A program made the translations under genes and the position numbers. A stretch of 53,126 nt of DNA from a virus, in the IMG/VR virus record IMGVR_UViG_3300026116_000048, positions 1 through 53,126 of that record; one strand, 5' to 3'. Shown piece after piece: positions 3,709-7,932 of the stretch (the stretch's first letter is position 1; the number at the start of each line of letters is the position of its first letter). Below the pieces are notes generated by a model that worked only from the letters and a program-made list of their open reading frames with translations, was not told where the DNA came from and searched no databases.

Positions 3709-4164
3709 ATGAAACTCGAACTGACACCCGTAAACTTGGACGAGGCGAACGCTTTCGTCTTATCGGTTCATCGGCACCATTCGCCCGTAGTTGGACACAA
3801 GTTTTCCATTGGTGCGAGTTGCGAAGAGAGAATTGTAGGAGTCATTATCGTTGGGCGTCCTGTCGCGAGGCGGCTTGATAATGGGCTGACCTTGGAGGTA
3901 ACACGATGCTGCACAAACGGCACGCCAAACGCTTGTTCCATGCTGTATCGCGCAGCTTGTCGTGTTGCCGTAAACCTTGGGTTCAAGCGCCTCATCACAT
4001 ACACGCTGGCAACAGAATCCGGGGCGAGCTTGCGCGGCGCGGGATTCTCTCTTTTAGGTATGAGGGGCGGCGGAAATTGGAATGTGCCAAGCCGCCCGCG
4101 CGTTGACACGGACAGTTTGCTTCGCGGCCAAAAACAACTTTGGGAGGTAACTTTTGAACAGTAG
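3709..4164 (+). CDS. XF1762-family GNAT-like protein
   Basis: A 151-residue protein that I place in the XF1762 family of phage-encoded GNAT-fold proteins. Family marks are the N-terminal VHRHHSPVVGHKFSIGA block, then VGVIIVGRPVARRLD, EVTRCCTNGTPNACSMLY and the LITYTLATESGASLRGAGF segment, which corresponds to the acetyl-CoA-binding part of the GNAT fold. The substrate is unknown. It sits directly upstream of, and overlaps, a DNA methyltransferase gene; XF1762-type genes commonly lie near DNA-modification genes, so a part in modifying phage DNA or a base is a reasonable guess. Confidence 0.8.
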   Translation: MKLELTPVNLDEANAFVLSVHRHHSPVVGHKFSIGASCEERIVGVIIVGRPVARRLDNGLTLEVTRCCTNGTPNACSMLYRAACRVAVNLGFKRLITYTLATESGASLRGAGFSLLGMRGGGNWNVPSRPRVDTDSLLRGQKQLWEVTFEQ

Positions 4165-5602
4165 CCCACTACTCAAGGGAGGGTCTGTGAACGCTGTTCA
4201 CGTCACAAAATGGACGGGGTGCTACGATTCGTCGTGGAAAGGACTGATCACGCCAGCAAGTTTTGCCCACCCGGCAAAGTTCAGTTTCGGACTCATCGAA
4301 AGGATTTTCAACCATTGCTTGGCGATGGGTTATCTGAAGAAAGGTGATCGAGTTGGGGACGCCTTTGGAGGGATAGGCACAGGTGGGATCGTGGCGGCTT
4401 ATCGCGGGTTAGAATGGGTCGGCGTGGAATTGGAGAGCCGTTTCGTAGCATTTGCAAATGACAATTTTGCGCTGCATCGACGGCATTGGGAACATATGGG
4501 CTTGCCGTTGCCACGAATCATCCAAGGCGATTCACGATGTTTTGCTGAGAAAGTCGCGGGCGTAGTTACAAGTCCGCCGTATGCGGATTCAATTGATCGG
4601 CCGAGCGGAATTGATCCCGACAAAGTGAAGAAACCCGGCGGGCCTAATGGCAATACTCACATGGATATTTATGGCGAGGCCTCCGGTCAGATTGGTTCCC
4701 TAAAATCTGGCCAAATTGAGGCTGTGATATCATCGCCGCCTTATGCTGGCACATCTGGCCAAGGCGGGGGCGGAATTAATGTCAATGGCTACAAACCGGC
4801 TCCGGGCCGTAAATGGACGCATCCTTGCGGCAACCCGGACGAAGTAGGCAAACGCACTTACCAAGGCCAAGGCGGTGATCGCAGTGCTGGCAACATTGAG
4901 ACTTTGAAAGAGGGAACGGTGCAAGCCGTTGTGAGTTCACCGCCATATTCTGACATTGCCGCGGGCGCTGGCGGTTTGAACACGAAGCCAGCGAAGAAAC
5001 CCGGCCAGCAATCTGGACGCAAAGCAGAGTCAGCAAGTCAGGACACAGATCAACGCTACGGCACTTCCACTGGCCAAATCTCACAACTCAAAGGCGGTAG
5101 CGTCGATGGTGTTGTGAGTTCGCCGCCGTTTGAGGGATGCGGGGCGAACCTCGGTGACGTTGGCGATACGCCGGGGCAACGACAAGAGATAAGCCAACGC
5201 AGCAAACCTCGAACCAACGCGTACGGGGGCGCTAATGGACAGATAGGGAATGAATCAGGCGAAACTTACTGGCAGGCCGTGGACGCTGTTTACCGATCCT
5301 GCTTTAAATGCATTAAGCCGGGCGGATATTTAATTTTAGTTCTCAAAGATTATTGCAAAGCGGGTAAAAGAGTCAGGCTCTGTGACGATACCATGCGCCT
5401 GCTAGAGCACATCGGATTTCAACCGTTGGAACGCATCCACGCCATGCTTGTCACTGAGACGGTCGAGAACGGGCTGTTCGGCGATGAAAAGACGAAGCGC
5501 CAGCGCAAATCGTTTTTCCGGCGTCTTTACGAGGCGCGGTTGCCTGAGAATGACGATAGGCGGATCGATTTTGAGGAAGTGTTGATATGCAGCCGACCAT
5601 GA
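4154..5602 (+). CDS. DNA amino-methyltransferase with four SPPY/F motifs
   Basis: A site-specific DNA adenine or cytosine-N4 methyltransferase. Motif I is DAFGGIGTGG (about residues 69-78), followed by the acidic GVELE (motif II). The catalytic motif IV SPPY is present four times: residues 140, 194, 262 and 323 (the last is SPPF). Copies 2-4 are each preceded by a GQI/GNI..LK.G...VVSS-type lead-in and separated by Gly-rich linkers, so the motif IV region was tandemly duplicated with a period of about 54-68 residues. The C-terminal part (KPGGYLILVLKDY...KSFFRRLYE) resembles phage methyltransferases. The start is ambiguous: TTG 4154 with GGAGG six bases upstream, or GTG 4187 with GGAGG four bases upstream. 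I keep 4154. Orphan enzyme: no cognate endonuclease is seen. Confidence 0.85.
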   Translation: MNSSPLLKGGSVNAVHVTKWTGCYDSSWKGLITPASFAHPAKFSFGLIERIFNHCLAMGYLKKGDRVGDAFGGIGTGGIVAAYRGLEWVGVELESRFVAFANDNFALHRRHWEHMGLPLPRIIQGDSRCFAEKVAGVVTSPPYADSIDRPSGIDPDKVKKPGGPNGNTHMDIYGEASGQIGSLKSGQIEAVISSPPYAGTSGQGGGGINVNGYKPAPGRKWTHPCGNPDEVGKRTYQGQGGDRSAGNIETLKEGTVQAVVSSPPYSDIAAGAGGLNTKPAKKPGQQSGRKAESASQDTDQRYGTSTGQISQLKGGSVDGVVSSPPFEGCGANLGDVGDTPGQRQEISQRSKPRTNAYGGANGQIGNESGETYWQAVDAVYRSCFKCIKPGGYLILVLKDYCKAGKRVRLCDDTMRLLEHIGFQPLERIHAMLVTETVENGLFGDEKTKRQRKSFFRRLYEARLPENDDRRIDFEEVLICSRP

Positions 5603-5629
5603 TTTCCATTCGCTGCTTCACAAAATGTG

Positions 5630-5815
5630 ATGCGACAACCAGACAAACCAGGCGGCCTAGAAACCCGCGCAAACATTGGTCTATTATCCGTAAACCAACA
5701 ACTATACGTCGTGCAGCAAACTCTATTGAGCACGCTGGCAGCGGATGGGCCTTTTCGTATTAACCACAAAATCAAAACCGTGAAGGCTGAAGGTGTCGAA
5801 GAGGACGAAGAATGA
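5630..5815 (+). CDS. Small protein of unknown function
   Basis: A 61-residue protein from ATG 5630 (a GTG at 5627 is an alternative). It is polar with a central amphipathic helix (VNQQLYVVQQTLLSTLA) and an acidic C terminus (AEGVEEDEE). The stop region overlaps the SWIM gene start. An alternative ORF in another frame, from ATG 5599 (coupled to the methyltransferase stop), would encode a very basic 54-residue peptide and seems less protein-like. No family recognised. Confidence 0.45.
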   Translation: MRQPDKPGGLETRANIGLLSVNQQLYVVQQTLLSTLAADGPFRINHKIKTVKAEGVEEDEE

Positions 5816-6020
5816 TGTACAGCAAATTCCCGGCGACTCGCGGTACCTCGTCAGGTCGTCGAGCCGCCGGGGAAAATATTACATCGTCGATCTCAGTGCC
5901 GAAGCCAAACGATACCAAGAGAGATGCACCTGTGCAGACCATCAATTCCGTGAAACCAAAACCTGCAAGCATGTCAGGAGAGCAATGCTTTATAAAAAAC
6001 AGCAAACGGCGCAAAAATAA
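5793..6020 (+). CDS. SWIM zinc-finger protein
   Basis: A 75-residue protein starting at GTG 5793. It carries a complete SWIM zinc-finger signature CxCx(10)CxH at residues C45, C47, C58 and H60, in the context RYQERCTCADHQ...TCKHVRRAMLY. The upstream beta region (YLVRSSSRRGKYYIVDLS) matches the usual SWIM arrangement, where a strand reading the processed substrate precedes the finger. SWIM domains bind nucleic acid or protein and are often parts of larger helicases or transposases; here the domain stands alone. Stand-alone SWIM proteins occur in phages near replication and recombination genes, which fits this operon. Confidence 0.8.
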   Translation: MSKRTKNDVQQIPGDSRYLVRSSSRRGKYYIVDLSAEAKRYQERCTCADHQFRETKTCKHVRRAMLYKKQQTAQK

Positions 6021-6470: not shown

Positions 6471-6928
6471 CCGAAGAAGAGCTTAAACAACGATTTCCAA
6501 GAATATCAGATGATTGCATCAGAAAAACGCTCGCCCAGGACGAAGCCCAAAGACTCAATCCACGGCTCTACGGCCCCGCAGCTCACAAACGGGCAGTTGA
6601 AAATGCGGAAGCCGAAAAAGCAGCTTGTAATGAGCGTGTGGATCAACTGGCTGAGTCCGTCGCCAAACAGAACGCGATACATGCACTGGACAATCAGCCG
6701 AAAGATCGCACTCGCCGCCAAGGCCGCGTGGCAATCATCGTTACAATCACATCCTACCGCCGTGCAGAGCTTGATTTCGACAATCTCGTATCTGGACTCA
6801 AGTCGCTCAGGGATGCCATAGCAAGTTCGCTTGCTCTCGACGATGCGGACAAAAGACTCCGATGGGAATACAGCCAAGTCGTGACGACCGGGATAACCGG
6901 AACGCATGTGCTTATCACGATGGTATGA
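6467..6928 (+). CDS. RusA-like Holliday-junction resolvase
   Basis: A 153-residue protein whose C-terminal two-thirds resemble RusA endonucleases: RRAELDFDNLVSGLKSLRDAIASSLALDDADKRLRWEY. It has the conserved Asp residues of DFDN and the LxxDDxxxxxW segment that hold the catalytic metal in RusA. RusA resolves four-way DNA junctions made during recombination and replication. The N-terminal 70 residues are a helical extension not usual for E. coli RusA (120 residues). ATGA overlaps are present on both sides, and it works plausibly with RecT upstream. Confidence 0.7.
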   Translation: MTEEELKQRFPRISDDCIRKTLAQDEAQRLNPRLYGPAAHKRAVENAEAEKAACNERVDQLAESVAKQNAIHALDNQPKDRTRRQGRVAIIVTITSYRRAELDFDNLVSGLKSLRDAIASSLALDDADKRLRWEYSQVVTTGITGTHVLITMV

Positions 6929-7932
6929 AGCCTTTAGTCTTCGATTTGTTTTGCGGTTTAGGCGGCTGGTCAGAGGCTTTCATCGCCGAAGGCTATGTTG
7001 CGATCGGGTTCGACATTGAAGCGCACGATTACGGCAACGGCGGTTATCCGGGCGCATTGGTTCTACGCGATGTGCGTTCAATCAATGGCGGCGAGCTCGT
7101 CAAACAATACGGCGTTCCAAACGTCATTGTAGCCAGTCCGCCTTGCCAAGAATTCAGCTATATGGCGATGCCTTGGACTAAGGCCAAAGAGAAACGGCGG
7201 AAGATACTCGCGAACCCGGCAGAAAGAACGCGATTGACTGATTTATTCAACCAATGCTTTCGGATTCAGCGCGAAGTCTCGGCGGCGGCTGGCCATTATG
7301 TGCCAATTGTTATTGAGAATGTGCGCGGTGCTCAAGAGTGGGTAGGCAAAGCGCGGTGGAATTTTGGAAGCTTCTACCTATGGGGAGATGTGCCGGCGTT
7401 GATGCCGATACCAGCGAAGTATCGTAAAACGCTGGAAGGCTTTTGGGATACAACGCGGGAGAATTACAATCCAAACCATTCATGGAAAGGCGAAGGCAAC
7501 AAAACGGTGGGCATGAACTGGTCGGATCAATCCATTCGCGGCCAAGATTTCACGCGCATTGCGGGCAAACAGGCCGAAGGAACGAAACTACCCGGAAACA
7601 ATTCGGCACGGCGTTGGGAAGATCGAGAAGTGAAACGATTGTGTGATGCCGGCGTCAAAGTCGCAAGCGAAAGCGGGCGGCGAACTGATATTGGGAATGG
7701 CACTCGTTTCACAACCCGCGATTGCGGGACTGAAGGCGTAAATGGCTTCACTCCAAACGGAGAGCCTTTAGGAAAAAACACTTTAGGAAGAATGCATGGA
7801 TCAAAATCACCAAAGCGCAAAAAAGCCTCAGCCGAAATTGCGAAGATACCTCACGCACTCGCGCAATGGATCGCCAGATGCTTTAAGCCGCACAAAATCC
7901 TTGCATCCACGTCGCAAACCCACAAGCCATGA
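6925..7932 (+). CDS. C5-cytosine DNA methyltransferase (Dcm-like)
   Basis: A 335-residue DNA cytosine-5 methyltransferase. Motif I is FDLFCGLGGWSEAF (residues 6-19), the catalytic Cys lies in SPPCQEFSY (C74), and motif VI is ENVRGAQEW (131-139). The target-recognition and C-terminal region is atypical: long Gly/Asn/Lys-rich loops (KGEGNKTVGMNWSDQS) and an ending AEIPHALAQWIARCF-type helix as motif X. The start ATG 6925 overlaps the RusA stop by ATGA; the frame is open further upstream. No restriction partner is visible, so it is probably an orphan modifying phage DNA against host restriction. It is the second DNA methyltransferase in the operon. Confidence 0.85.
   Translation: MKPLVFDLFCGLGGWSEAFIAEGYVAIGFDIEAHDYGNGGYPGALVLRDVRSINGGELVKQYGVPNVIVASPPCQEFSYMAMPWTKAKEKRRKILANPAERTRLTDLFNQCFRIQREVSAAAGHYVPIVIENVRGAQEWVGKARWNFGSFYLWGDVPALMPIPAKYRKTLEGFWDTTRENYNPNHSWKGEGNKTVGMNWSDQSIRGQDFTRIAGKQAEGTKLPGNNSARRWEDREVKRLCDAGVKVASESGRRTDIGNGTRFTTRDCGTEGVNGFTPNGEPLGKNTLGRMHGSKSPKRKKASAEIAKIPHALAQWIARCFKPHKILASTSQTHKP

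Follow-up and report, generated by a model that had tools for sequence, protein, structure and literature searches.

Arrays of exchangeable motif IV cassettes in a family of predicted phage amino-methyltransferases: a possible route to multispecific DNA methylation

What could a DNA methyltransferase do with four copies of its catalytic motif IV? This question is raised by a gene in a 53,126-bp viral stretch from IMG/VR, the whole of which we refer to as the window. An earlier note on this DNA had pointed to SPPY, SPPY, SPPY and SPPF at residues 140, 194, 262 and 323 of one open reading frame and to a common lead-in in front of three of them, and had offered two readings: either the enzyme modifies several targets, or one copy is catalytic and the others are target-recognition decoys. 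Translation of the ORF places all four motifs exactly at these residues, and the common lead-in, G[QN]I..LK.G.V.(A/G)V[VI]SSPP[YF], is present in copies 2-4; copy 1 is preceded by an ordinary core lead-in, IIQGDSRCFAEKVAGVVTSPPY. As the chance expectation for one SPP[YFW] is about 0.01 per protein of this size (a rough composition estimate), and as the two relatives retrieved by whole-protein searches bear the same four copies (the closest one, L001, 59%) and six copies (L002), the presence of four motifs is not a matter of chance.

A predicted amino-methyltransferase with permuted motif order

The ORF (4154-5602, plus strand) is open and gives 482 aa from its TTG codon; translation may instead start at GTG 4187 (471 aa), as relatives begin a few residues before W-x-G-C-Y-D. 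Judging by its motifs, the product is most probably an amino-methyltransferase, acting on either N4 of cytosine or N6 of adenine. Motif X, motif I and GDSR are all intact (Table 1), the PF01555 match (40.2 bits against a cutoff of 26.7) spans residues 33-102, that is the motif X and motif I SAM-binding region, and a search for C5 catalytic motifs gave no PF00145 match in this multi-SPPY protein.

Table 1. Features of the multi-SPPY gene and its immediate upstream neighbour, in window coordinates
Feature	Positions	Strand	Basis
Mom-like DNA-modification gene; overlaps the methyltransferase ORF start, outside the array	3709..4164	+	phrog_1384, E 2.6e-35
Predicted multi-motif-IV amino-methyltransferase, whole ORF	4154..5602	+	PF01555 N6_N4_Mtase, E 4.8e-10
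Motif X FAHPAK, residues 37-42	4262..4279	+	aligns with motif X of 2zie, 1boo, 6pbd
Motif I DAFGGIGTGG, SAM-binding, residues 69-78	4358..4387	+	PF01555 and solved methyltransferases
GDSR (motif III region), end of N-terminal core, copy 1 lead-in	4526..4537	+	conserved in family
Motif IV copy 1 SPPY, residues 140-143, +1 Ala	4571..4582	+	
Cassette body 1, type GID..K, cluster 0, 23 members	4583..4669	+	body clustering
Copy 2 lead-in YGEASGQIGSLKSGQIEAVIS	4670-4732	+	
Motif IV copy 2 SPPY, residues 194-197, +1 Ala	4733..4744	+	
Cassette body 2, type GGGI..KGY..VGKR, cluster 3, 8 members	4745..4873	+	body clustering
Copy 3 lead-in GDRSAGNIETLKEGTVQAVVS	4874-4936	+	
Motif IV copy 3 SPPY, residues 262-265, +1 Ser	4937..4948	+	
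Cassette body 3, type IAAGAGGLNTKPA..GQQ, cluster 2, 9 members	4949..5056	+	body clustering
Copy 4 lead-in YGTSTGQISQLKGGSVDGVVS	5057-5119	+	
Motif IV copy 4 SPPF, residues 323-326, +1 Glu, core-proximal	5120..5131	+	
Cassette body 4, type NIGAVGDTP..RQQI..SKPR, cluster 7, 5 members	5132..5221	+	body clustering
C-terminal core: YGGANGQIG, GETYWQA helix, IKPGG, ...RKSFFRRL...RIDFEEVLI	5222..5599	+	

Comparison with the PF01555 amino-methyltransferases TTH0409 (2zie) and M.PvuII (1boo) shows what is shared and what is not. Motif X HPA.F, motif I, SPP[YWF] and the Y..tpGQLG segment with its helix and pGG can all be aligned. The solved enzymes, however, possess a single motif IV with the GQLG segment directly behind it, and their order is IV...VIII-X-I, whereas the phage family shows the permuted order X-I-III-IV..VIII and carries bodies of 25-50 aa in the loop after motif IV. 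In the window protein, the element made of motif IV ([SDN]PP[YFW]), a GQ[LI]G segment and a helix, which aligns to 2zie 49-129, occurs four times. The beta-class order (IV-VIII, recognition domain, X-I) was not found in this protein, which runs X-I-III-IV-...-VIII and ends after the motif VIII region; the canonical recognition domain, located in beta-class enzymes between VIII and X, is thus missing. In TTH0409, about 2 aa separate SPPYW from KRYEDTPGQLG, which leads into a helix before pGG. Each body is therefore inserted on the catalytic face, into the loop that comes after motif IV.

A family with one to seven copies

Further relatives were collected in two ways. A degenerate 60-nt DNA pattern covering the lead-in and SSPP[YF] matched 19 viral and 4 bacterial-assembly stretches (a 59-nt version, shorter by one base, matched none), and a scan with the C-terminal core only, which does not select on copy number but was seeded with multi-copy proteins, gave 67 viral loci. 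Altogether, 63 distinct proteins were gathered, nearly all of them encoded by uncultivated phages. A second clade with a diverged core (L116-L130, with C-terminal ..SFWRxxYxxKYPDAP..) adds members with 1-4 copies. The number of intact copies before the C-terminal core, counted in 62 proteins, most of which come from the core-based scan, was one in 4 proteins, two in 21, three in 20, four in 9, five in 4, six in 1 and seven in 3. Arrays thus extend beyond the four copies seen in the window. Lack of conservation in homologues, which the earlier note had named as an argument against a special role of the extra copies, is the opposite of what we observed: SPP[YFW] copies are kept in relatives.

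An origin as a bacterial housekeeping gene or as part of an ordinary restriction-modification system was considered and rejected, as scans of about 390 genomes per phylum in two bacterial phyla gave essentially no members of the family (seed genomes excepted), and the core found no match among annotated phages (INPHARED) or plasmids.

Bodies drawn from a shared lexicon

The repeated unit consists of the lead-in YG.[TS].G[QN][LI]G.[LM]..G.[VIF]DA[VA][VI], then [ST]SPP[YFW], then a variable body which runs to the next YG. In short form, GQ[IL]..[LM]..G.VDAVV stands before SSPP[YF] and YG.T.GQ[IL] after the body. The bodies, with a median length of 34 aa (5-95%: 23-47), are the sole large variable parts of the family proteins.

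These inserts turned out to be recurrent types, a feature which the earlier note had not remarked on. At a score of at least 50, relatives in other proteins exist for 112 of 186 bodies, compared with 1 of 186 after shuffling, and an all-against-all comparison yielded 27 clusters of two or more members; all four window bodies belong to such types. At least one type, GGGIAxKGYxG..DLVGKRSYMP, is common to the main family and the second core clade. Related bodies may stand first, in the middle or last in an array, and every combination of these positions occurs; the cluster of window body 4 occupies all three. Inside single proteins, on the other hand, none of 245 body pairs scored 60 or more, against 1.7 expected from the between-protein rate; the arrays therefore look non-redundant, and tandem duplication was rejected as the way in which the repeats arose.

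Body content is decoupled from core divergence. The first bodies of L020 and L086 are 81% identical with cores at 35%, and window body 3 is 76% identical to body 2 of L008 with cores at 41%. Conversely, the cores of L086 and L092 are 72% identical and no body is common to both, and the C-terminal cores of the window protein and L026 are 84% identical, with one of four bodies in common. The pair L008/L024 permits a view at the DNA level: per 15-nt block, 12-15 positions are identical across the lead-in and SPPY, and 4-6 right after SPPY and before YG, so that a scaffold of about 90% DNA identity falls to chance level at SPPY. A body was replaced here inside a kept scaffold. Variation in the family proceeds by modular replacement rather than by scattered substitution, which would make a diversity-generating retroelement a less likely source. 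No near-identical protein pair with different or rearranged arrays was present among the collected family. By analogy, the whole pattern resembles that of arrayed target-recognition modules.

Protein-level selection on SPP and a distinct last copy

Leaving aside lead-ins that continue into the core, 96 of 107 precede an intact xSPP[YFW]; the remaining 11 are mostly inserted domains, array ends and single changes (SPGF, SPVY, SPPH). One could imagine that SPPY is kept merely as a DNA box for recombination, but this was rejected. The serine codon class of SPP (TCN or AGY) differs in 142 of 284 within-gene pairs, and since a switch between these classes is impossible by one synonymous substitution, it is the residue and not the DNA that is conserved.

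The copy next to the C-terminal core differs systematically from those upstream, which in the window is copy 4 against copies 1-3 and which also goes beyond the earlier note. Glu directly follows SPP[YFW] in 41 of 58 last copies, against 4 of the 127 copies lying upstream (Fisher p = 8e-23, a value which is only indicative as the sequences are related), and the aromatic residue is Trp in 11 of 58 and 3 of 127, respectively. When related bodies were compared, one from a last and one from an upstream copy, 27 pairs had Glu in the last copy alone, and no pair had it in the upstream copy alone; the +1 residue thus tracks position, independently of body type. Glu at +1 likewise marks the last copy in the second core clade (10/11 last versus 5/21 upstream), and the window protein conforms, with Ala, Ala and Ser upstream and Glu in copy 4. 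This rule indicates that the core-proximal slot is special.

Possible mechanism and alternatives

The array suggests that one enzyme marks several DNA sequences and so evades several bacterial defences. The reading we favor, with a probability of roughly 55%, is a multispecific amino-methyltransferase in which interchangeable cassettes of motif IV and recognition loop take turns at one SAM-binding core. Each cassette would contribute its own beta-4 strand, an SPP[YF] catalytic loop and a body of about 34 aa reading a different DNA target; the target would be set by the cassette held in the beta-4 slot, which is flanked by the N-terminal core (X, I, III) on one side and by the C-terminal core (V-VIII) on the other, and cassettes outside the slot would be looped out on long flexible linkers. 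Beta-4 is an inner strand of the methyltransferase fold, and as there is one core per chain, only one copy could occupy the active position at once. Bodies may be gained, lost and swapped between phages via recombination in the conserved scaffold, and one gene could in this way provide several methylated sequences and a shield against several restriction systems. Of the two readings proposed initially, it is modification of several targets that gains from protein-level selection on all SPP[YFW] copies and from the exchangeable inserts, and the decoy reading is left without support.

Whether the protein is in fact a 'revolver' enzyme, where competing copies of a Rossmann-fold strand, a catalytic motif and a recognition loop exchange in one active site and strand exchange inside a single polypeptide would thereby select the specificity, we consider an even bet. 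We know of no enzyme with several competing copies of a core strand and catalytic motif, and a literature search that covered few subscription journals gave no description of a multi-motif-IV cassette architecture. Against the favored reading stand L016, L063 and L080, where simple in-line turn-taking would require cassettes located past the core to dock from the C-terminal end or in trans, and the few broken copies (SPGF, SPVY, SPPH).

The systematic difference of the core-proximal copy could mean that this copy alone is catalytic, and the idea of a single catalytic copy thus retains some support from the Glu rule. In that case, upstream SPPY copies would be recognition or DNA-scanning modules with the motif IV fold and no chemistry. 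The special rule at the last copy (Glu at +1, more Trp), which applies whatever the body type and in both core clades, argues for it, as does SPPYE in two of the four single-copy members (L073, L081). We nevertheless find it unlikely, as upstream copies keep S-P-P-aromatic together with the beta-4 hydrophobic pattern under protein-level selection, and as a single intact copy may also be of the upstream type (SPPYA in L072, SPPFL in L046). Positional dependence of the +1 residue would also fit upstream cassettes being a silent reservoir, from which bodies are recombined into one functional position to switch specificity between phage generations. The L008/L024 body swap within a kept scaffold would fit, and movement of HsdS domains by flanking repeats is known (PMC3077401). 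Such a reservoir, however, needs DNA similarity and not a conserved protein, and every second within-gene pair has its SPP serines in different codon classes. Decay would moreover be expected, yet about 90% of lead-ins keep SPP[YFW], with several of the exceptions being insertions or array ends, and no near-identical pair with rearranged cassettes occurs in the family, which makes this explanation distinctly improbable. Finally, unequal recombination can produce repeats of this kind, and the array might therefore be a functionless by-product of slippage or tandem duplication. But copies from one and the same protein resemble each other no more than unrelated copies do, similar copies reside instead in unrelated proteins, and SPP is conserved, so that we find a by-product hardly credible.

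Relation to known multispecific systems

In the C5 methyltransferases of Bacillus phages, the array of recognition modules lies beside an unrepeated catalytic domain. Those of Bacillus subtilis phages (SPbeta, phi3T; Trautner and colleagues) have one core, tandem short recognition modules and an anti-restriction role, one enzyme with several recognition domains protecting against many R-M systems (PMC12707154). The new family likewise has a tandem series of different short modules on a single core, and these modules are common to different enzymes. It differs in that amino-methylation is predicted and in that the repeated unit itself holds the beta-4/motif IV catalytic loop.

The second parallel is domain movement (DOMO) in HsdS and Type IIG proteins, where repeat-flanked modules change in number and position and are common to positions and loci; HsdS recognition domains move between positions via flanking repeats arranged as x-TRD-y-x-TRD-y (PMC3077401). 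Repeat-flanked modules exchanged between positions and genes are found here as well, and x would correspond to the lead-in with SPPY and y to the YG.T.GQ[IL] segment. HsdS, however, is a separate specificity subunit without catalytic residues and has one to three modules, whereas the present cassettes, up to seven, lie inside the catalytic polypeptide, and only their x holds a beta-4 strand and catalytic motif.

A few Bacillus phages were already known to achieve multispecific methylation through arrayed modules, with C5 enzymes. What would be new is that amino-methyltransferases reach multispecificity by another architecture, in which the catalytic motif itself is duplicated, and that environmental phages draw their recognition cassettes from one pool. 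Should every body read a single DNA target, the 27 clusters present in this sample would amount to a parts list for decoding DNA-methylation specificity, and exchange of a Rossmann-fold core strand in a working enzyme would become directly testable.

Insertions, split genes and genome context

Several relatives contain additional sequences in the cassette region. An HNH_3 endonuclease domain is inserted at or between cassettes of L074 (2336-4342), and L002 has a winged-helix-like insert (5601-6000) in common with gene 52 of Mycobacterium phage PenguinLover67, a match rejected as a family relative since only this domain is shared. Repeat-like filler separates cassettes in L022 and L028. The linkers therefore tolerate large insertions. 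L070 (2879-4348) shows a possible helix-turn-helix insert, with no Pfam match, after a single FPPF. Polar inserts of about 100-200 aa are related between L046 and L081 and between L014 and L079, proteins otherwise distant (alignment scores 119 and 94 versus shuffled maxima of 59 and 55).

Two or three extra SPPY cassettes past the C-terminal core, after ..RKSFFRRL..VVLCMQK, are present in L016/L133, L063 (3101-4867) and L080 (2945-4876), and the post-core arrays of L016, L063 and L080 each end in a lead-in without SPPY. These same three genes, together with L012, L018 and L047, have the motif X codons HP|AK interrupted by 5-9 nt with a TGA (e.g. HP*LAKF, HP*VLAKF), which splits each of the six ORFs some 35-40 aa in, at a position that matches from gene to gene. 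Recoding, reinitiation and a homing-endonuclease scar are candidate explanations; an HNH-like ORF lies directly upstream of L018.

Genes in the window include those for RecT, a RusA-like protein, a Mom-like protein, a C5-methyltransferase and an integrase. With the Mom-like gene overlapping the array gene and the separate C5-methyltransferase gene nearby (6862-7932), the phage seems to carry a DNA-modification island. At the contig end (1-277), the window contains about 31 tandem copies of a 9-nt unit, GATTGCTCC, which read as a Leu/Arg repeat ORF.
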